Shown in pieces: positions 18,988 to 41,108 of a stretch of DNA of 64,000 nt. Source of the stretch: Acetobacter estunensis (lineage in GTDB: Bacteria; Pseudomonadota; Alphaproteobacteria; Acetobacterales; Acetobacteraceae). How positions within the stretch are numbered: position 1 is the first letter of the stretch; each line of letters begins with the position of its first letter. Below the pieces are notes generated by a model. The model was not told where the DNA came from, did not search any database, and saw only the letters and a list, made by a program, of their open reading frames with translations. The stretch is from assembly GCF_011516945.1 (NCBI RefSeq), contig NZ_WOTH01000002.1:124001-188000 (forward strand). The letters are read 5' to 3'. The translations under genes and the position numbers were made by a program.

Positions 18988-19818
18988 ATGGCTTCACTCA
19001 AGATATTTACTCTCCTGCATCAACCTCCTCGTATAAAGCGATCATCTTTCCTCTTCTCAGATCTCGTAACGGGAAGCTACAGTTGTTCCGGTGGCTCATG
19101 GCAGGGCGATCTGGACGGAATTAATATCAGTCGAAAGAACACGCATTCTGAAATGCGAGGACAATACTTTGTCTGGAAAAATCTCTGTGACCGTTATGAA
19201 TATATCGGTTTCGAACACCAGCGAAGAAAGTTCTTCCTCGATTTCATGGGGCGCAATCTAACGCCGGACATAAATAGCGAGTTGTTTAATGTTCGTCGGC
19301 GGGAGGCCGTCCAAAAGTCAGAGCAAACTTATCCAGTTTCTTCGGAAACATTCTCTTTCTATGTCGCTCAACGTAGCACGATGGCTTCCGAAGAAACGGA
19401 CCACATCCTCGACTTTGTCGGCTCACATGACATTATCTGCCAACGCCCCCATCGAGGGGTGCTTGTACGGGATCTTTTCGCCGGTTTTTTGGGGCAGGAA
19501 GGCTGGGATGACCTGATCGCAGCTATTCGTCATGTTGATATAAACAACCGCTTTGATCTTGACGCCATTTCAGACACGGAAATGGGTTGTTATTGCAATA
19601 TGTATATTATGAAAACATCCATTTTTCACGAATACATGACATTGTGGTGGGACGTGATGAACCATCTCATCGAGAAACGTGGCGAACCGGATCGTCAAAT
19701 GGGGCATTTTGCCGAAAGATTGCTCACACTCTTTCTAACGCAAAAAATGCTGTCCAATCCAATGCTGAAAGTCGGGTTCCTACCCCTTCTCTTCTGTTCC
19801 AATCCAGAGGGATATTAA
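18988..19818 (+). CDS. DUF4422-family glycosyltransferase-like protein
   Basis: 276-aa protein of the DUF4422 family found in capsule and exopolysaccharide clusters. Diagnostic features are SEMRGQYFVWKN followed by YIGFEHQRRKFF (residues about 54-84), and the later SDTEMGCYCNMYIMK and FAERLLTLFL segments. The family is thought to have a GT-A-like fold and sugar-transfer role; no acceptor is known. The gene is more AT-rich than lysA or rpsA, suggesting acquisition. It is divergent from lysA and convergent with the minus-strand glycosyltransferases, separated from them by a strong hairpin. Confidence 0.8.
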   Translation: MASLKIFTLLHQPPRIKRSSFLFSDLVTGSYSCSGGSWQGDLDGINISRKNTHSEMRGQYFVWKNLCDRYEYIGFEHQRRKFFLDFMGRNLTPDINSELFNVRRREAVQKSEQTYPVSSETFSFYVAQRSTMASEETDHILDFVGSHDIICQRPHRGVLVRDLFAGFLGQEGWDDLIAAIRHVDINNRFDLDAISDTEMGCYCNMYIMKTSIFHEYMTLWWDVMNHLIEKRGEPDRQMGHFAERLLTLFLTQKMLSNPMLKVGFLPLLFCSNPEGY

Positions 19819-19871: not shown

Positions 19872-20894
19872 TCAGCTCTGGAGGATTCCATTTTCCTTCA
19901 GGATTCCCAGTGCCTGCCGAATACGATGACCATATGTGTGATCCGCCATAGTGCGTGCCTGCGCCTTTTTGGCGGTTTCCAGCCGGAGGGCATCGTTGTC
20001 GAGATAAGTTGCAATCAGCTTGTCGAACTCGCGACGGTTCGAGAAGGAAGGAATCTCGTCCTTCGTGTAGTAACGACGGATCTCGTAGGTATCCTCGTGA
20101 AATACCTGAAGAGCCCCCGCAGCGGCAGCCTCGAAGGTACGCGGTCCGGGTGTGGACGGCGCGATCATAAAGCGCTTGTTCTCGAAGTTCAGGCTACGTC
20201 CCAGGTTGAGAACCAGTTTGGAGCGCTGATAAAATTGGACAAGCTGTTCTTTTTCAAGACGCGCATCCGAGAAGCCGATACCAAGCTCACCCCAACCCGG
20301 TCCGATGATCTTGATATTCAGATTGCGCAGGCTTGGGAGAAGGCCACGCACGATGTCCTTACGATTGGTAAAGGCCACGCCGCAGAACAGCACGTCGATG
20401 GTGCGCTCCACGGCCTCATTGATGGGACGGTAATGCAGCTTGGGGCAGGCAGCTAGCGGAAGATGCCAGACATCCTTGCGGGTGTAGAAATTCGATCCCC
20501 ACCGTTCGCATGAAAAGATCGCGTCGAAATCATTGGCAATGCGATAATTCGCATCCTGCTCATAGGGATCTTCCGTCGCCCAGAAGACGGTAGCCGCGCC
20601 AATTTTCTTGGCTTCGCGGTTGACCTCACCAAAATAGGTGCTCTCGGGAAGATAGGAGCCTATACCGAACACAATGGTGGGTTTGAGATAACGGATGGCC
20701 GCAGCCGCGCCGCTGATATTGGCGGCCACCACATTTTCTTCGCCAAAGCACTCTGCCCAACCCGCCATGATGGATTCACGGATCTGCGCATTGGCCTGGG
20801 ATTCGAACCGGCCACCACTGCAGATCAGAACCCTTCCGGAATACTCACCCGTCTTTGTCATCTCTTCTCTCCAGCCCGAAGCTTCTCGGTTCAT
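19872..20894 (-). CDS. CgeB-like family glycosyltransferase
   Basis: 340-aa GT-B-type protein of the CgeB/Glyco_trans_1_2 group. The C-terminal half shows the group signature TPGPRTFEAAAAGALQVFHED followed by EIPSFSNRREFDKLI and a helical end (KKAQARTMADHTYGHRI). The N-terminal half has VLICSGG and VFWATEDPYEQD, matching the N-terminal domain of the larger neighbour at 23948 and suggesting paralogy. ATG 20894 overlaps the upstream gene stop by 4 bases (ATGA), so the two are translationally coupled. Sugar and acceptor unknown. Confidence 0.8.
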   Translation of the reverse strand: MNREASGWREEMTKTGEYSGRVLICSGGRFESQANAQIRESIMAGWAECFGEENVVAANISGAAAAIRYLKPTIVFGIGSYLPESTYFGEVNREAKKIGAATVFWATEDPYEQDANYRIANDFDAIFSCERWGSNFYTRKDVWHLPLAACPKLHYRPINEAVERTIDVLFCGVAFTNRKDIVRGLLPSLRNLNIKIIGPGWGELGIGFSDARLEKEQLVQFYQRSKLVLNLGRSLNFENKRFMIAPSTPGPRTFEAAAAGALQVFHEDTYEIRRYYTKDEIPSFSNRREFDKLIATYLDNDALRLETAKKAQARTMADHTYGHRIRQALGILKENGILQS

Positions 20895-23800
20895 CCAACT
20901 CGCAACAGGGCGTCAGCCCGGCGCACATTTTTCAGAATTCCGGCAACAGCAGCATCGAACCGCGCCGGATCGCATTCCTGTTCCACCCGTCCGATCGCAG
21001 CGTCCCGCACGTTCCCCCACAAAGCCTGATTGCGGTACAATTCCACGATTGATGCTGCAAAACGCTGCGGATCGGGCTTGCCGCCGGAGAGAATATCCCT
21101 CTCCGCTGTCCAGCCCAGTTGCTCGATCAACAGATCACTCGCCACAACCGGCAGCCCCAGAGCGGCACTTTCGTGGATCTTGTAGGGGATACCTCCAGCG
21201 AAGCGGGTCGGTGCGACAAAAACTCGGTGGCTGTCATGGAAACCACGCAGATCCTCCGCTTCTCCAACGATTTCCAGTCCTTCGCATGCGTGTAACGGAC
21301 GCAGATCCACACCGCGAGAGCATGACCCCACAACCGTCAGGCGCGTATCCGGACCAAGTTCCGCACGCACAAGGGGCATCACTTCACGCGCGAACCACAG
21401 CAACCCATCCAGATTGGGTGATTCCTCGTCAACAATCGCACCCACGAAGAGCAGGCCATGCCGCTCACCGAAAGAGCGCGGTGTGGGAGAAGGACGCAGC
21501 GAATGTCCCAGAACGGTGACATTTCCATGTCCCGCCTGACGGATCATCTCGGCTTCGTGCTCATTTACGGCCACAACCTGCTGGCAGAAATACGCGCACT
21601 CGAACTCGCTCCGAAGTTCGTCCTCCAGCGCCGGACGCGTGGCATCAGCCCCCTTCTCCAACACCTCATCACGCAGACGCAGACGCGGGCTGACAACCGC
21701 TTCCGTGTCGAGCACGAAGCGCGTTCCGGGAAGATAGCGGTGGTTCTTGTGCAGAACAGGCAGCAACCGCGCCAAATTATGCGTGCGCCCGATCCAGACC
21801 AGATCGAAAGCCCCTGCACGCTCTTCCAGAAAACCGTCGAGATCCCGTGCGGAACGGTCGAACAGAACTTCTACCGTATCGGGAAAATCGCCATAGATGC
21901 TGCCCAGTGAGTGGTAATACGCATCCACAGGAAAGATCGTTACAGTGCATCCTTGGCGCGCCATGCTGCGCACGATGTCGTTTGACCGCACATATCCCGA
22001 TCCAAGGCGCCGCAACGGCACGCGATCCTCGATGAATAGAACCCGCGGCTGCGTGGGTGGACGCGAACGCGCCATCACAACGTTACTCAGATGCGCCGGA
22101 TACTGGTTGCGCAGGAAGTCCGCCTGTTTCGAGAGAAAGATGCGTCGGTTGCGTTGCATCAGCGCGTGAGAGGCCGATGAACTGGACGATCCGAATTCCA
22201 GATGTTCGATCACGACAGACGGATCGTAAACCACGCGGTATCCGCTGCGGATCAGCCGTACGCAGAAATCGGACTCCTCGAAATACGCGGGCGCATAAGC
22301 CGTGTCGAAACCGCCCATGTTGCGGGCAAGCTTCGTCGGCACGAGCAGGAATGGCCCCGAACAATAGTCCACGTCCCGCACGAAGTTCGCTTCGGGACAA
22401 TTGGGATCGGCATCGCGCAGATACCCGTAAGCCCCACCGTCACGCCAGATGATCGATCCAGCTTCCTGAAGTTTTCCATTCGTACGGATGATCTTGCCGC
22501 CGACCGCGCCAATACGTCCATCGGAGCCAAGACGGCGCAGGCCGTTTTCAATCGCACCGGGCGCAAGCCTGACGTCATTGTTCAGATACAGGACCGCCTC
22601 GGCCTTCGCCATCTCCAGCGCCATGTTGCACGAGAGGAGGAAACTCGCATTATGCTCCAGATGGCGGATGGTCGCGCCCTGCACGTAATGTTCCAGATCG
22701 CGCGTCTCATCGCGCGAACCCGAATCAATAATGATGAGATCGATCGCTCCACGGAAGCATCCGCGCAGGGCCGATAGCGCCATCATGGTCAAGGGAAATT
22801 GGTTGTGCAGCACCATGAGAATGCTGACTGCCGGACGCCCTTCATACGAGAAGTCGAGAGGCTTCCGCCCCGCATCCACCAGCAGTCCAGCCGCTTCCCG
22901 ACAGAACATCATCTTGGTGTGAATCTCATCGGGAACAATGTTCTTTCGATGTTCCTCATGCGCCACCCAATGCGCAAAAGGATCACGGAAGATGCCACTG
23001 TCCACGTCTTCCCGCACAAACGCCTGTGAAGCATAGGTCGCAAGAGGCACATCCTGTGCAGGCTGACGGCCTTCCATCGCACCGGCAGCCAGAAAATGGT
23101 CGTAGCCGGAGCGGAAGTGGCCTGCGACGATACACTCCTCCACATCGGGATACGTCGCCCGATAGAAATCTTCCGAAAAACCTGCCTGCGGCGAGAGTCC
23201 GTCCCGCTCTCCGGTCGTCAGATAATGGTGGAGGGCATTACGGTATTTCCCGGCTTCCACCTCTGCTCGCGCCTGAGGGTAGTGTTCGAGATACCAGTGG
23301 GGATCGAAATACCAAGAACACCGCTTCTGGTCGGCAGCTTCTTTCGGACTTCTCAGGAACGCACCGAATGGTCCGGCATTGTCATTTTCCGATGTGGGAT
23401 GATTGGCCCTGGTTCTGACTTCAGGCCGTCGCACCGATGGATCGAAAAAAAGAGAACCCGTGCGAAAATCCGCTTCACTACCGGACAGGTAATGCGCATA
23501 GCCGTTCGCATGGCCGGTGGCTTTGAGCGCCTGCTCCGTCAGTTCGGGATTAGCCGCACGATAAAATGCTTCGGAGAATAACCAGTGAGGAGACCGGTCC
23601 GGATGACCGTAGTGCAAATAATGCTGAAAACCTGAAAGCAGATCACCAGCTTTGATCGCAGCTACGACATCGGGATTGGTTGCCCGATACCAAGCCTCAT
23701 CGAACCATATATTGGGAGAGAATCCTTTGGTCTGTCCCAGTCTGCGGTAGTGATCGAGAGCGTCTTCGCACGCACCGCTTGCAATGGCGTCTTTCGCCTC

Positions 23801-23908
23801 TGGGTACGATGCTACGTACCATGCCGCCTCGAAACGTGCCCATTGCGGCACACTGGAGGTGGTGGCGTCCCATTCCAGAGCACAGGGCAGCACGTCCTCA
23901 TCCAACAT
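20891..23908 (-). CDS. bifunctional GT2-GT4 glycosyltransferase with five N-terminal repeats
   Basis: About 1005 aa. Residues 20-280 hold five copies of a roughly 43-residue unit (F-x3-[WF]-Y-x3-[YN]-P ... G-x4-[AG]-x2-H-[YF]). Residues about 354-600 form a GT2 GT-A domain starting VSILMVLHNQ with the metal/nucleotide segment YLNNDVRLAPG and the later YFEESDFCVRL. Residues 620-1005 form a GT-B domain (VLFIEDRVPLRRLGSGYVRS ... FAGGIPYKIHESAALGLPVV). Tandem transferases suggest sequential addition of two sugars. ATG 23908 is chosen behind AAGG over GTG 23911. Coupled to the downstream CgeB-like gene; 39 bases after the upstream fusion gene. Confidence 0.85.
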   Translation of the reverse strand: MLDEDVLPCALEWDATTSSVPQWARFEAAWYVASYPEAKDAIASGACEDALDHYRRLGQTKGFSPNIWFDEAWYRATNPDVVAAIKAGDLLSGFQHYLHYGHPDRSPHWLFSEAFYRAANPELTEQALKATGHANGYAHYLSGSEADFRTGSLFFDPSVRRPEVRTRANHPTSENDNAGPFGAFLRSPKEAADQKRCSWYFDPHWYLEHYPQARAEVEAGKYRNALHHYLTTGERDGLSPQAGFSEDFYRATYPDVEECIVAGHFRSGYDHFLAAGAMEGRQPAQDVPLATYASQAFVREDVDSGIFRDPFAHWVAHEEHRKNIVPDEIHTKMMFCREAAGLLVDAGRKPLDFSYEGRPAVSILMVLHNQFPLTMMALSALRGCFRGAIDLIIIDSGSRDETRDLEHYVQGATIRHLEHNASFLLSCNMALEMAKAEAVLYLNNDVRLAPGAIENGLRRLGSDGRIGAVGGKIIRTNGKLQEAGSIIWRDGGAYGYLRDADPNCPEANFVRDVDYCSGPFLLVPTKLARNMGGFDTAYAPAYFEESDFCVRLIRSGYRVVYDPSVVIEHLEFGSSSSSASHALMQRNRRIFLSKQADFLRNQYPAHLSNVVMARSRPPTQPRVLFIEDRVPLRRLGSGYVRSNDIVRSMARQGCTVTIFPVDAYYHSLGSIYGDFPDTVEVLFDRSARDLDGFLEERAGAFDLVWIGRTHNLARLLPVLHKNHRYLPGTRFVLDTEAVVSPRLRLRDEVLEKGADATRPALEDELRSEFECAYFCQQVVAVNEHEAEMIRQAGHGNVTVLGHSLRPSPTPRSFGERHGLLFVGAIVDEESPNLDGLLWFAREVMPLVRAELGPDTRLTVVGSCSRGVDLRPLHACEGLEIVGEAEDLRGFHDSHRVFVAPTRFAGGIPYKIHESAALGLPVVASDLLIEQLGWTAERDILSGGKPDPQRFAASIVELYRNQALWGNVRDAAIGRVEQECDPARFDAAVAGILKNVRRADALLRVG

Positions 23909-23947
23909 CACGCGCAGCCTTGCTCAGACGGGAAAACGCTCATGTCC

Positions 23948-26900
23948 TTAGATTTCGACAAGAGCCCGGCCAACATTATCGCAGAACCCCACGACGACCT
24001 CTTCCAGCCCGACCTGCTCAACAGATCGCACCTCATTGTCCTCGCAGAGCACCCGGATATTGGTTGGACGCATGCCGCCATCTTCTCCCACTACGTTCAG
24101 CAGGCACACGCGATACCAGCCGTTGAGCTTCTCGTTATAGCCCCGCTTCAGCGAGAGGTTACCCACGAAGCCAACGCAGAGAGGCGCATCCGGGAAGATC
24201 GTCTGCACGTCCTGACGGATCAGGCGGGAAGTGGCAAAGAACAGAACGTCTCCATTCTCTTCATTCACGAAGGCGACATAGACCTGACCAGCCCGTGAAA
24301 GACCGCGCAGGAACGCCCAGCCACGAATGATAATGTCACTGGCCTCGTCATCACGCTCATGACGGCCGCCATCCTCGATCAGACCGCTGAAGTGATCGAT
24401 GTAGAACTCCAGATCGCCCTTGAAAGCCTGAGTGATGGGCTGTGCAAGCGCGCTGAGCTTTACGCCGCGCAGCAGACCGTCGCTTTCCGATATCCGCTCG
24501 AAGTCGCGCAGAATCTGGCCATTGGAAGGAGGAATCCGTGCGATTCCAATGATCTGACCGCCCTCAACCTCGATCTGGATCGAAGTGAGCTGGAAAGACC
24601 CCTTGCCGTGCACGACATTGACGAGTCCGATCCTGAACACGCCCTCACACCATTTCCCGCGCAGCGCGACCTGCGCGAAGAAACCGGAACGACGCGGGGC
24701 ACCGGGGAACAACCCTCCCACATCGGAACGCACTTCCCGATGCGTCGGGATGAAGATGGGCGCACTCTCTTCATCACCGATCAGTGCGGCATAGAGATGG
24801 CCGGAACCGGAAACGCCGGGCACCACATACCAGCCACGGATGTGGAAGTCGGAAGCCGTGACGAAATCTTCGTCATCCACTTCCGCGAACACATGGCGGC
24901 AGACATCATCGATGTAGTACTCGGCGCCCTGAATGGACGACCAGTCAGATACGACTTCCGGCAGTTCGATCGAAAGATCGCGGGTCGTTGGCGGATCGAA
25001 GATATGACGCGGTGGCGCTTGGTGCTTCCATGATGGATGCGGCAGGAGATGCACCTGCCCCACGTCGAACTGGACGTTGCTGCTTCCCATATCCCGTCGC
25101 GGTGCGACGTCACGGTAAACATTCAACAATGCTTCCCCATAATCGCGTGCGTTCGTCCACAATTGCGGGCCGATATTCTCCATCAGGCTCTTGCGCGTGG
25201 TCTCGCTGCACCGGATCAACTCCAGTCGCTGGAGCACGTCGGCCGGTGCGCCGATGGGCACCTTGAAGCCGTTCACGCCGTCAATCACACGATCTCCCAA
25301 TGCGCCGACATCGGTCACGATGGGGATCAGGCCGTTCTGCCATGCTTCGGACAGCGAGATGCAATAGGTCTCGGGCCAGATGGACAGGTTGAGCGCGACA
25401 TCCGCCACCTTCAGCGCGTCGATGTCACCGGCGGAATAGCGGCCATAGACATGCACGTTGGAACGATGGAGGTTGTTGAGAATGCCTTCATATTCAGGAT
25501 GGACATATCCAAAGATATGGAACTCGAAGAGATCCGGGTTCGCCATCTCGATCACGCCCAGCACGGCATCCGCGCCCTTGGTGCGCAGGAAATTGCCGAT
25601 GATCGCGACAGAAAGCCTGCGCCCCTCAAGCGGTTCATAAGGCTTGGGCAGAACGGGAGCCGTCGTCTCGGGCGAAGGAATGCCGAGGGTCAGACTCTCC
25701 TTGTGATCGAGATGCGGATAGACCTCGTGCATGAGATCGTGGGAGTGCTTCGTGCCAAAAAGGATCGTGTCGATCGAGTTGAGCATGGTCGCCACGAACG
25801 CGCGACGGGTCTGCTCGCCACCGAACTCGACATTATCGGAACGCTTGAGTGAGTTGTCTGCCGCCAGCACCCATTTCACGTCTTCCTCGCAATAGCGAAG
25901 CTCGTGATTGAGCAGATTGTAGCGCGACGAGATCAGGAAGAAATCATGCGCCGAGAACACCACGCCCACGCCATTGGCCTTGGCGATGATGGGCAGTGAC
26001 AGGCAGTGATGCCCAAGATGCTGGAAGTGCACGATATCGAAATTGTACTGACTGAGAGCAGCGGAGAACGCCATTTCCTCAGCACCGTCACACAACGTGT
26101 CGAGCCATCCCGTATCCGGCACATCGAAGCTCTCGATCTCCCGGCCGCTCGCATCCGTCAGACGGCACATGCCGTCACGGTGGAGCCAGTAGAAGAACTC
26201 CACATCACGCAGAAGCATGGAGGCGATGGTCTGCTGATAGACCTCCACGCCACCCCATGTCTGCTCATGAATGGTGGAATGCGTGCACATCAGCACACGA
26301 AGACGACCGCGACGCGCGGGAACGGAAGCAGCAGTTTTCGGATGACGAAGGAAATCGGCCCCCGTCACTTCCATCATGCGACGCAGACGGTGATCGTAGA
26401 GATGGTTTTCCAGAACAGCCTTCTGGGCAGCAACCGCCTGCTTGCGACGCAGGCTCTTGTTGGACAGCAGGGCGTCAATATGCGCCACAACGCCTTCCAC
26501 CGAGCGTGAGAGCGCCACGCCTCCGACTTCGTTGATGTAGCGTTCGTCCAACTGCTCACCCGCTTCGACAACCTGTGCGGTACCAGCAAGGCCAAGCTCA
26601 TAAAAACGTGGACCCGGCGCTGTTGCCTGCCCCACGTCGCCATGACTGGCATAATCGCGGAACATGGTCAGCGTCACGGCGCTGGCATTGGCAAAGTCGA
26701 TGAACGCTTCATGACTAATGGGGCGCTGGATGGCCAGATCGGCCAGATCGGCCGGCAGCGGGGGCAGGTATTCGTTGCCCGGGCAGACCAGCTTGATCCG
26801 CGCCTCGGGAAACGCCGTAATGACGCGCCGCAATGTTTCCACGCGGTTGGGCCACATCGTGCCAGCAAAGAAGATGTCATAATCGAGATCTGCGGCAGAT

Positions 26901-27298
26901 TTAACCTTGCGCTCATGCAGCGAGAGACTCGCGGCCAGCGGCAAATAGTGTCCTTTGCTGCCGTAGAATTCGGTACAGGACGGATCGTTGGTGAAGACGT
27001 AATCGAACACGCCCATGTTATCGACGTTGAACGGCACCATGAACGGATCTTCGAACGCCCAGAAGATCATTGTCTTGAAGGCCGGACGCACCCGGCGCAT
27101 CAACTCCATGTTGATCCGCTGTCCGTCGATGCAGATCAGCACGTCATGCTCACCCGCTGCGGCCAGCCCGGCCAGTGTCATGTTGTCCGCAACAACGACG
27201 TTTTCGTCGCCAAGAACGGTTCTGGCGGCCCGCTCAAACGCCAGCGTCAGGTAGTAGTTCGGGTTGTGCGTGTAGTTCGTGTTGTAGATGACTGCCAT
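23948..27298 (-). CDS. CgeB-GT4 fusion glycosyltransferase with duplicated C-terminal domain
   Basis: About 1116 aa. Residues 1-320 are a CgeB-like unit (MAVIYNTNYTHNPNY, FWAFEDPF, TAPGPRFYELGLAG). Residues about 333-728 are a GT4 unit (THSTIHEQTWGGVEVYQQ ... SIWPETYCISLSEAWQNG with an EX7E-like end). After a linker, two related units of about 120 residues follow (about 790-912 and 965-1087), each with FYID or YYID, ASD-x2-IRGW, R-x-DV-x3-FP-x-AP and a late L-x-NVV. No known family was recognised for these; they may be carbohydrate- or protein-binding beta domains. The frame opens at 27355, but ATG 27298 fits the domain start. Confidence 0.8.
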   Translation of the reverse strand: MAVIYNTNYTHNPNYYLTLAFERAARTVLGDENVVVADNMTLAGLAAAGEHDVLICIDGQRINMELMRRVRPAFKTMIFWAFEDPFMVPFNVDNMGVFDYVFTNDPSCTEFYGSKGHYLPLAASLSLHERKVKSAADLDYDIFFAGTMWPNRVETLRRVITAFPEARIKLVCPGNEYLPPLPADLADLAIQRPISHEAFIDFANASAVTLTMFRDYASHGDVGQATAPGPRFYELGLAGTAQVVEAGEQLDERYINEVGGVALSRSVEGVVAHIDALLSNKSLRRKQAVAAQKAVLENHLYDHRLRRMMEVTGADFLRHPKTAASVPARRGRLRVLMCTHSTIHEQTWGGVEVYQQTIASMLLRDVEFFYWLHRDGMCRLTDASGREIESFDVPDTGWLDTLCDGAEEMAFSAALSQYNFDIVHFQHLGHHCLSLPIIAKANGVGVVFSAHDFFLISSRYNLLNHELRYCEEDVKWVLAADNSLKRSDNVEFGGEQTRRAFVATMLNSIDTILFGTKHSHDLMHEVYPHLDHKESLTLGIPSPETTAPVLPKPYEPLEGRRLSVAIIGNFLRTKGADAVLGVIEMANPDLFEFHIFGYVHPEYEGILNNLHRSNVHVYGRYSAGDIDALKVADVALNLSIWPETYCISLSEAWQNGLIPIVTDVGALGDRVIDGVNGFKVPIGAPADVLQRLELIRCSETTRKSLMENIGPQLWTNARDYGEALLNVYRDVAPRRDMGSSNVQFDVGQVHLLPHPSWKHQAPPRHIFDPPTTRDLSIELPEVVSDWSSIQGAEYYIDDVCRHVFAEVDDEDFVTASDFHIRGWYVVPGVSGSGHLYAALIGDEESAPIFIPTHREVRSDVGGLFPGAPRRSGFFAQVALRGKWCEGVFRIGLVNVVHGKGSFQLTSIQIEVEGGQIIGIARIPPSNGQILRDFERISESDGLLRGVKLSALAQPITQAFKGDLEFYIDHFSGLIEDGGRHERDDEASDIIIRGWAFLRGLSRAGQVYVAFVNEENGDVLFFATSRLIRQDVQTIFPDAPLCVGFVGNLSLKRGYNEKLNGWYRVCLLNVVGEDGGMRPTNIRVLCEDNEVRSVEQVGLEEVVVGFCDNVGRALVEI

Positions 27299-27432
27299 TG
27301 ATCTACGCGGACGTTGCCGCCCCGCCTTCCCTATTACTGCCCAACCGCACATCACGTCTATGTGCGCGGACCCTACCGCAAAGTAAGGTCTGACAAAAGA
27401 CCTTCATTCCAGTCGTTTGAGACGGATATCAC

Positions 27433-27493: not shown

Positions 27494-29203
27494 TCAGCTG
27501 TCGGTGTTCCGACGACGGATCGCAGCACCCAGAATATCGCCCAGCGACGCGCCGCTGTCGGACGAGCCATACTCGTTGATCGCCTGCTTGTCCTCGTCCT
27601 GCTCGCGGCCCCGGATCGTGAGCGCCAGCTTGCGGGAAGCACGGTCAACCGAGACAACCTTCGCATCGACCTTCTCGCCGACAGCGAAACGCTCCGGACG
27701 CTGGTCGGCCTTGTCGCGAGCAAGCTCGGCACGACGGATAAAGCCGGACAGAACGTCGTCAACCTTGACTTCGATGCCATTGGCCTGAACCGCCGTCACC
27801 ACGCAGGTCACGATCGCGCCCTTCTGGACATGCGACAGAACGCCCGCAGCCGGATCTTCATGCAGCTGCTTGATACCCAGAGAGATGCGCTCCTTCTCGA
27901 CGTCCACATCGAGAACCTTGGCCTTCACGACCTGGCCCTTCTCGTAGTTCTTCATGGCCTCTTCGCCCGCATCGTCCCACGACAGGTCGGACATGTGGAC
28001 CATGCCGTCGATGTCTGCGGACAGGCCGATGAACAGACCGAACTCCGTGATGTTGCGTATCTCGCCCTCGACCTCGGAGCCAACCTTGTGCTCTTCGGCG
28101 AACTGCTCCCACGGGTTGCGCTGAACCTGCTTGAGACCAAGCGAGATGCGGCGCTTCGCGCTGTCCACATCCAGAACCATGACGTCCACTTCCTGCGAAG
28201 TCGCCACGATCTTGCCCGGATGGACGTTCTTCTTCGTCCAGGACATCTCGGAAACGTGCACCAGACCCTCGACGCCCGGCTCCAGCTCCACGAACGCGCC
28301 GTAATCGGTGATGTTCGTGACGCGACCGGTGAAGCGTGCGCCCGGCGGATACTTGAGCGCCACGTTCTCCCAAGGATCGGCCTCAAGCTGCTTCATGCCC
28401 AGCGAAATGCGCTGCGTCTCGGGGTTGAAGCGGATGACCTGCACGCGAACCGGCTGGCCGATTTGCAGAGCCTCGGACGGGTGATTGATGCGCTTCCAGG
28501 CGATGTCGGTGACATGCAGCAGGCCATCGACGCCACCCAGATCCACGAACGCGCCGTAGTCGGTGATGTTCTTGACCACGCCGTCGAGGATCATGCCTTC
28601 CTTGAGGCCCTGAATCAGCTCGCTGCGCTGCTCGGCGCGCGTCTCTTCAAGAACCGCACGGCGGGAAACAACGATGTTGCCGCGTGAACGGTCCATCTTC
28701 AGGATCTGGAACGGCTGGGGGATACCCATCAGCGGCGTCACGTCACGCACGGGACGGATGTCCACCTGACTGCCCGGAAGGAACGCCATGGCGCCACCCA
28801 GATCAACCGTGAATCCACCCTTCACGCGGCCATAAATCGTGCCGTTGACGCGCTGGTTGGCTTCGAAAGCCTTCTCCAGATTCGTCCACGCCTCTTCACG
28901 ACGGGCCTTCTCGCGCGACAGCACGATGGAGCCATCACGATCTTCGTAACGCTCAATGTAGAGTTCGACGAGATCGCCCGGCTTGACCTCGGAGGCCGCA
29001 CCGGCCGGTCCGAATTCGCGCAGGGCGACACGCCCTTCGCTCTTGAGGCCAACATCAACAATGGCGAAATCATCGGTCAGACGGACAACGCGTCCCGTGA
29101 CCACCGAACCTTCAAAACCGCTATCCTGACCGAGGGTCTCGTCCAGCAGGGCGGCGAAATCCTCGCCATTGAAATGGTCGGCTGTCTGTGTGGCTGAAGC
29201 CAT
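27494..29203 (-). CDS. rpsA: 30S ribosomal protein S1
   Basis: 569-aa ribosomal protein that helps recruit mRNA to the 30S subunit. Six S1 (OB-fold) domains are visible; the canonical ones read VKNITDYGAFVDLGGVDGLLH, VTNITDYGAFVELEPGVEGLVH-like and IRNITEFGLFIGL, each followed by SLGxKQL. Length and domain count match bacterial S1. The gene ends at a strong intrinsic terminator. The usual neighbours cmk and ihfB are absent within the window. S1 genes are commonly autoregulated at the leader; the 277-base upstream region shared with a divergent gene is long enough for this, but no element was identified. Confidence 0.96.
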   Translation of the reverse strand: MASATQTADHFNGEDFAALLDETLGQDSGFEGSVVTGRVVRLTDDFAIVDVGLKSEGRVALREFGPAGAASEVKPGDLVELYIERYEDRDGSIVLSREKARREEAWTNLEKAFEANQRVNGTIYGRVKGGFTVDLGGAMAFLPGSQVDIRPVRDVTPLMGIPQPFQILKMDRSRGNIVVSRRAVLEETRAEQRSELIQGLKEGMILDGVVKNITDYGAFVDLGGVDGLLHVTDIAWKRINHPSEALQIGQPVRVQVIRFNPETQRISLGMKQLEADPWENVALKYPPGARFTGRVTNITDYGAFVELEPGVEGLVHVSEMSWTKKNVHPGKIVATSQEVDVMVLDVDSAKRRISLGLKQVQRNPWEQFAEEHKVGSEVEGEIRNITEFGLFIGLSADIDGMVHMSDLSWDDAGEEAMKNYEKGQVVKAKVLDVDVEKERISLGIKQLHEDPAAGVLSHVQKGAIVTCVVTAVQANGIEVKVDDVLSGFIRRAELARDKADQRPERFAVGEKVDAKVVSVDRASRKLALTIRGREQDEDKQAINEYGSSDSGASLGDILGAAIRRRNTDS

Positions 29204-41069: not shown

Positions 41070-41108
41070 TTTACAAATAACAGAACATTTTTGTAAACAT
41101 ATTTACAG
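41070..41108. promoter_or_regulatory. candidate ScfR operator in the scfR/aceA intergenic region
   Basis: Perfect 8-bp inverted repeat TTTACAAA (41070-41077) and TTTGTAAA (41090-41097) with a 12-base spacer, plus a third half-site TTTACAG at 41102-41108. It lies 8 bases upstream of the regulator start and about 100 bases upstream of aceA. RamB sites are AAA/TTTGCAAA-like, so a related protein binding here to control aceA and itself is plausible. Confidence 0.55.

Follow-up and report, generated by a model that had tools for sequence, protein, structure and literature searches.

A tandem pair of predicted immunoglobulin-like domains without a family name at the C-terminus of a double glycosyltransferase of Acetobacteraceae

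A gene of Acetobacter estunensis encodes two glycosyltransferase units in one protein, a CgeB-type unit followed by a GT4 unit, and then continues well beyond the second of them. What is this additional C-terminal part, and what could it do for the enzyme? In a preliminary description of the window (the whole 64,000-nucleotide stretch of DNA analysed here) it was read as a tandemly duplicated accessory domain, unrecognised as a family and possibly a module that binds a glycan or an acceptor.

The length given there for the protein, 1116 aa, holds when the ATG at 27298 is taken as the start (Table 1). The same minus-strand frame extends upstream to a GTG at 27355 (23948-27355, 1135 aa), and all domain positions are numbered in this 1135-aa frame. 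Pfam places PF13524 on the CgeB-type unit (aa 180-328, E 3e-14, 53.6 bits against a cut-off of 25) and PF00534 on the GT4 unit (aa 583-727, E 9e-12, 45.4 bits against a cut-off of 26.4), with PF13439 (aa 368-495) just under its cut-off. The GT4 unit also carries an EX7E motif, ETYCISLSE, at aa 662-670. In the Pfam scan of the whole protein nothing matches beyond aa 727, where coverage of the GT unit ends. The limits of the two copies of the duplicated domain, A and B, were set approximately from the AlphaFold2 secondary structure and come out slightly wider than the ranges given earlier (roughly 24560-24930 and 24035-24412).

Table 1. Features of the glycosyltransferase gene set and its upstream neighbour, in window positions
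Feature	Position	Strand	Details
Single CgeB-type glycosyltransferase, partner gene	19872..20894	(-)	PF13524, E 4e-27; 75/75 loci
GT2-GT4 double glycosyltransferase, partner gene	20891..23911	(-)	Pfam; present at 75/75 loci
CgeB-GT4 fusion with C-terminal domain pair	23948..27298	(-)	1116 aa from ATG 27298
CgeB-type unit	26351..27298	(-)	aa 20-335, limits set by hand
GT4 unit	25121..26302	(-)	aa 352-745, limits set by hand
Hinge, GT4 to copy A	24947..25078	(-)	aa 760-803, contains QAPPRHIFDPP
Copy A, predicted Ig-like beta-sandwich, slow-evolving	24530..24946	(-)	aa 804-942
Inter-copy linker with one helix	24431..24529	(-)	aa 943-975, AlphaFold2
Copy B, predicted Ig-like beta-sandwich, fast-evolving	24011..24430	(-)	aa 976-1115
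rpsA (ribosomal protein S1), upstream neighbour, landmark	27494..29203	(-)	six S1 domains; 64/75 loci

Copies A and B align to one another with a local BLOSUM62 score of 182 across ~135 residues, compared with a mean of 28 and a maximum of 61 in 2000 shuffles of copy B, and with scores of 23-35 when five 140-residue pieces of aa 1-700 were set against either copy. All of the motifs named before are common to both copies (ASD-x2-IRGW, G-x-[VL]Y-x-A, R-x-DV-x3-FP-x-AP, GF and L-x-NVV). The tandem duplication is therefore confirmed. Both copies are also detectable in relatives at 75 of 75 Acetobacteraceae loci; at one of these (L182) copy A is partial and divided between two frames.

No model in Pfam, NCBIfam or PHROGs matches the domain with confidence, and sequence and profile searches of the PDB returned no chain under E 0.01, so that it stays without a family name, as the preliminary description had it, with no confident match of the copies to a known family. 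Three candidate identities were rejected as being at chance level: Itf52_C (matched by 2/18 and 2/54 copies), DUF7259 (1/54 copies, E 0.0066) and Gp17 9m7x_A (E 0.014 in the PDB profile search). Even at E<=10 nothing in the window's genome matches TarS_C1 (PF18674), and this model is absent from Pfam scans of the whole protein and of sets of 18 and 54 copies; the CBM48 and CBM21 Pfam models match neither the protein nor the copy sets. A match to the domain at window position 41081 (+) was put down to chance; the sequence resembles isocitrate lyase by eye, and isocitrate lyases of the PDB turn up weakly in the domain's PDB profile search. Among phylum-level matches, L066 and L068-L070 (four near-identical sequences, presumably a respiratory-chain subunit) and L071 and L072 were likewise discarded as chance, while L065 and L067 were retained as possible distant relatives. 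The latter, from outside the class, looks by eye like a membrane glycosyltransferase that ends in GW...DV...GF, and gives a weak profile match (E 0.009). The L040 sequence at 2874 (+) and the broken L042 pieces were left out of the domain alignment. A plasmid search gave no match. In the literature collection searched, no paper brings CgeB together with glycosyltransferase and Acetobacter, or with Gluconobacter, and none of the titles listed concerns the locus.

From 46 and 54 input sequences, AlphaFold2 modelled the pair at a pLDDT of 89.9 and a pTM of 0.87, and copy A alone at 91.8 and 0.86. Each copy comes out as a confident beta-sandwich that has a short helix where the R-x-DV motif lies; the region is modelled as two beta-sandwiches and not as one continuous GT domain. 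The models give good support to the view that both copies are ordinary immunoglobulin-like beta-sandwiches, so that what is "unrecognised" is the sequence family, the fold being a familiar one. Foldseek gave weak matches only: for the tandem model one FNIII pair at E 8.5e-4, and for copy A alone none at E<=0.001, with GH20 hexosaminidase (the best, 0.008), CBM21 and immunoglobulins at E 0.008 and above. Against viral models there were three weak matches at E<=0.001, with TM-scores of at most 0.22. A second structural aligner ranks TarS 5u02 first for copy A (Z 7.9, 115 residues, rmsd 4.6), through chain residues 327-481, which take in the linker together with the first part of the C-terminal domains, and TarS 5tz8 fourth (Z 7.5, rmsd 4.6). 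For the tandem model the top match is RmlT 8bz5_C (Z 7.2, 118 residues, rmsd 3.7), aligned to the copy B half (model 186-334), and among the 50 rows listed four further RmlT entries span both copies (Z 5.7-6.1, rmsd 14-15). CBM21 and glycosidase N-domains are also among the matches. The TarS and RmlT values fall below Z 8, where the aligner warns that similarity may reflect just a common arrangement, and their ranks are only suggestive because unrelated enzymes reach equal Z: sulfane dehydrogenase 7.6, glycopeptidase 7.5 and sulfite dehydrogenases 7.2.

The window's genome has a single gene of this kind. Matches were found in 14 of 61 genomes, namely its own and 13 of 36 others of the genus, with 0 of 24 in other families. 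Within the family the domain profile, at E<=0.01, picks up 39 of 249 genomes, the window's own among them, from 20 of 102 genera. Of 385 genomes spread across the class it picks up 3, again counting the window's own, and all three belong to the same family; these profile counts are lower bounds because only the best candidates per genome were scored (<=16 and <=10). The titles of the 75 related loci all name genera of the Acetobacteraceae, and the closest locus, at 99%, is from Acetobacter estunensis. They were collected with two peptide patterns, from the hinge and from copy A, so relatives lacking copy A would be missed. Among the loci that keep both copies is a complete chromosome of 2.0 Mb (L167).

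In a domain tree of 60 rows, for which 27 of the 75 loci supplied copies and to which six others were added, a single branch (support 98/89) parts the A copies from the B copies, with long-branch rows, L051_B among them, placed unsurely. The duplication is therefore older than the divergence of these acetic acid bacterial genera. Since then the copies have evolved at different speeds: mean pairwise identity across the 75 loci is 0.60 for copy A and 0.41 for copy B. In a conservation profile of 66 full-length sequences (the window's and those from 65 loci), both GT units have a mean majority share of 0.81 and the hinge one of 0.80, and is thus conserved to the same degree as the catalytic units. 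Copy A reaches 0.71, the linker 0.64 and copy B 0.54; 38 of the 139 columns of copy A are conserved at 95% or above.

The catalytic part also occurs alone. CgeB-GT4 fusions lacking the pair are present in two genomes of one genus from another alphaproteobacterial family (36-37% identity over ~605 aa, no match to the domain profile), beside a frame similar to the CgeB unit (29-30% over ~255 aa). In yet another family, a third genome has a 33% identical fusion (555 aa; L191) whose C-terminus gives two weak profile matches (domain E values of 0.052 and 3.4e-5, calculated for a small set; genome-level E 0.0017); Pfam confirms both GT units in L191 and in L195. One copy stands at the same place in the protein of G545 (L050), and groups with the A copies in the tree, and two are present in G503 (L051). 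Zero, one or two clear copies thus accompany the catalytic part, which makes the domain an accessory, in agreement with the earlier reading. It also appears in other architectures. In G433 a 472-aa protein after rpsA (L049) consists of one N-terminal copy followed by WY repeats, with no GT, and the three-gene glycosyltransferase set lies elsewhere in that genome, not after rpsA (L052), with an extra domain copy at the N-terminus of its GT2-GT4 protein. In G062 a 158-aa protein (L058) situated away from this gene set has one copy and, by eye, a hydrophobic N-terminal stretch, and is probably membrane-anchored.

The three glycosyltransferase genes are together at 75 of 75 loci. Of the 11 loci without rpsA, six have the order CgeB, GT2-GT4, CgeB-GT4 gene (L127, L138, L139, L153, L155 and L156), three retain the gene order of the window (L114-L116) and two are interrupted by contig ends (L113 and L117). 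In genome G541 (L042, L054) the CgeB-GT4 gene is interrupted by stop codons and the GT2-GT4 gene lies in two frames, with rpsA open. The GT2-GT4 partner of the window has at its N-terminus (23042-23833, minus strand) five F-x-x-[WF]Y...H[YF]...G repeats outside any Pfam family; a Commensalibacter counterpart (L159:11152-16416) is ~750 aa longer and by eye has more of them. A DUF4422 gene adjoins the set in the window (18988-19818, plus strand) and was matched at one of the 75 loci, that of Acetobacter estunensis.

A possible wider family emerges from a second unnamed domain, here called GW-RxD-GF, of ~90 residues, which is common in Acetobacteraceae proteins including glycosyltransferases (L078-L107, and the N-terminus of L050:5576-8656). 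A 203-aa query with one such domain has matches in 68 of 100 Acetobacteraceae genomes; 7 of 33 frames carrying it in the loci fetched have two copies, and 19 members gave no confident match in Pfam, NCBIfam or the PDB. It is shorter than the domain described here, but has the motifs GW, R-x-D-[VL] and GF in the same order and in hhalign register (alignments A2 and A5). The profile score between the two is 20.2-21.2 against 17.5-18.8 for the best column shuffle, with 0 of 150 shuffles reaching it in each of three sets (450), although such shuffles of profiles do not preserve the strand pattern. The statistics are weak: the hhalign probability is 8-32%, lower with deeper profiles, and P is 0.003-0.004 with the gap-trimmed profile, 0.0005-0.004 untrimmed and, for the deeper profiles, where the score dropped, 0.002-0.004. 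The A5 run reached a probability of 81% and P 1e-5, but is partly circular, as one of its rows came from the A2 profile search itself. Going by these alignments, the two domains probably share descent.

What, then, may the pair do? We suggest, at what we would call an even chance, a role like that of the C-terminal pair of TarS, in which it would hold the acceptor glycan and/or assemble enzymes; the domain order is the same, constraint is lost from the inner to the outer domain, the hinge is conserved and some homologs lack the pair, all of which fits. In this model one predicted Ig-like beta-sandwich domain, duplicated in tandem before the genera diverged, is joined through the conserved hinge to the double transferase, whose location is presumably cytoplasmic. 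The pair would perform no chemistry, like its TarS counterpart, but would keep a polymeric or lipid-linked acceptor close to the GT4 site and/or bring together copies of the enzyme or its two partners, which would allow several sugars to be attached before the chain, perhaps a surface glycan, departs. Copy A, next to the GT, would carry the conserved part of this job, leaving copy B as an outer domain freer to change. Binding of a glycan or acceptor, the suggestion of the preliminary description, is plausible on the predicted structure, the best-scoring folds including TarS, RmlT and CBM21/CBM48-type modules; an assembly role is as likely.

Some of the same observations could be explained by a pair that makes no contact with sugar and acts solely as a protein-protein docking module, by which the CgeB-GT4 enzyme would be tethered to its two partners, GT2-GT4 and CgeB. 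Ig-like folds often bind proteins, the three genes stay together throughout the 75 loci, and in a single genome the domain occurs both with WY repeats in a protein without a GT (L049, 472 aa) and on the N-terminus of GT2-GT4. The short single-copy protein L058, distant from these genes, suggests a wider use, however, and we consider docking as the sole role rather unlikely. A purely structural role, as spacer or folding aid without specific binding, would agree with the low mean identity of copy B (just 41%) and with the homologs in two genomes that manage without either copy, but sits badly with a copy A at 60% and with so many near-invariant columns, and with the detection of both copies at every locus, the complete L167 chromosome included; it appears improbable. 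Finally, the position directly behind the GT4 unit and the strongly conserved hinge might indicate that the region belongs to the GT4 catalytic unit or is a degenerate third transferase. The models are mainly beta-sandwich, though, GT4 Pfam coverage stops earlier and the 36-37% identical fusions lack the region, which makes this reading very improbable indeed.

A bolder reading brings in the GW-RxD-GF domain. It may be that a large unnamed superfamily of Ig-like GW-RxD-GF modules exists in Alphaproteobacteria, on surface-glycan glycosyltransferases, sometimes in tandem and at either end, and, jointly with this, that the pair makes the double transferase a processive or scaffolded three-gene machine, an independently assembled Gram-negative counterpart of TarS and RmlT; we hold the two together only tentatively, with somewhat more doubt than belief. 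If the link to GW-RxD-GF holds, one result would aid the annotation of many glycosyltransferases. Multi-domain glycosyltransferases determine both the kind of surface sugars that a bacterium produces and the length of the chains, and many accessory domains of these enzymes are nameless. Acetic acid bacteria live in vinegar and kombucha and as insect-gut and bee symbionts. Here the boundaries of the domain are clear, its fold is predicted with confidence, its two copies evolve at different speeds and the three-gene setting is conserved; as there are also relatives with zero, one or two copies, truncation offers a direct test of what the pair does.

Ig-like domains have been met on other glycan-active proteins. 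A Klebsiella O-antigen terminator has, in the authors' AlphaFold model, an Ig-like, CBM-like domain whose need is given as unknown (PMC11231755). The CBM21/CBM48-type starch-binding modules (for example PTG 7qm2, neopullulanase 1j0h and pullulanase 3wdj) are Ig-like and of similar size, with Z 6.3-7.2, but the present domain has no Pfam match. RmlT, the wall teichoic acid rhamnosyltransferase of Listeria monocytogenes (PDB 8bz5, 8bz4, 8bz7, 8bz8 and 9gzk), provides the best structural match of the tandem model, on its copy B half, but no sequence match was found, and the rmsd of 14-15 over the pair means that the domain orientation differs. TarS, the wall teichoic acid beta-GlcNAc transferase of Staphylococcus aureus, has behind its GT two tandem Ig-like domains that form a trimer; without them the enzyme stays active at almost the same kcat/Km, but its affinity for the acceptor and its intrinsic processivity fall (PMC5156392), so that even in TarS the pair is dispensable for catalysis. 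As in TarS (5u02, 5tz8), the glycosyltransferase part of the present protein is followed by a tandem of two Ig-like domains, here as a predicted fold. The protein differs in that the TarS trimer is established and our protein is known from sequence and model, in having no sequence match to TarS_C1 (PF18674), and in its catalytic part, which in TarS is a GT-A enzyme of the GT2 type (GT-A according to PMC5156392) and here is of the CgeB and GT4 types. We conclude that this is an old, unnamed tandem domain of ordinary fold, in an architecture known from TarS and here placed on a different kind of enzyme.
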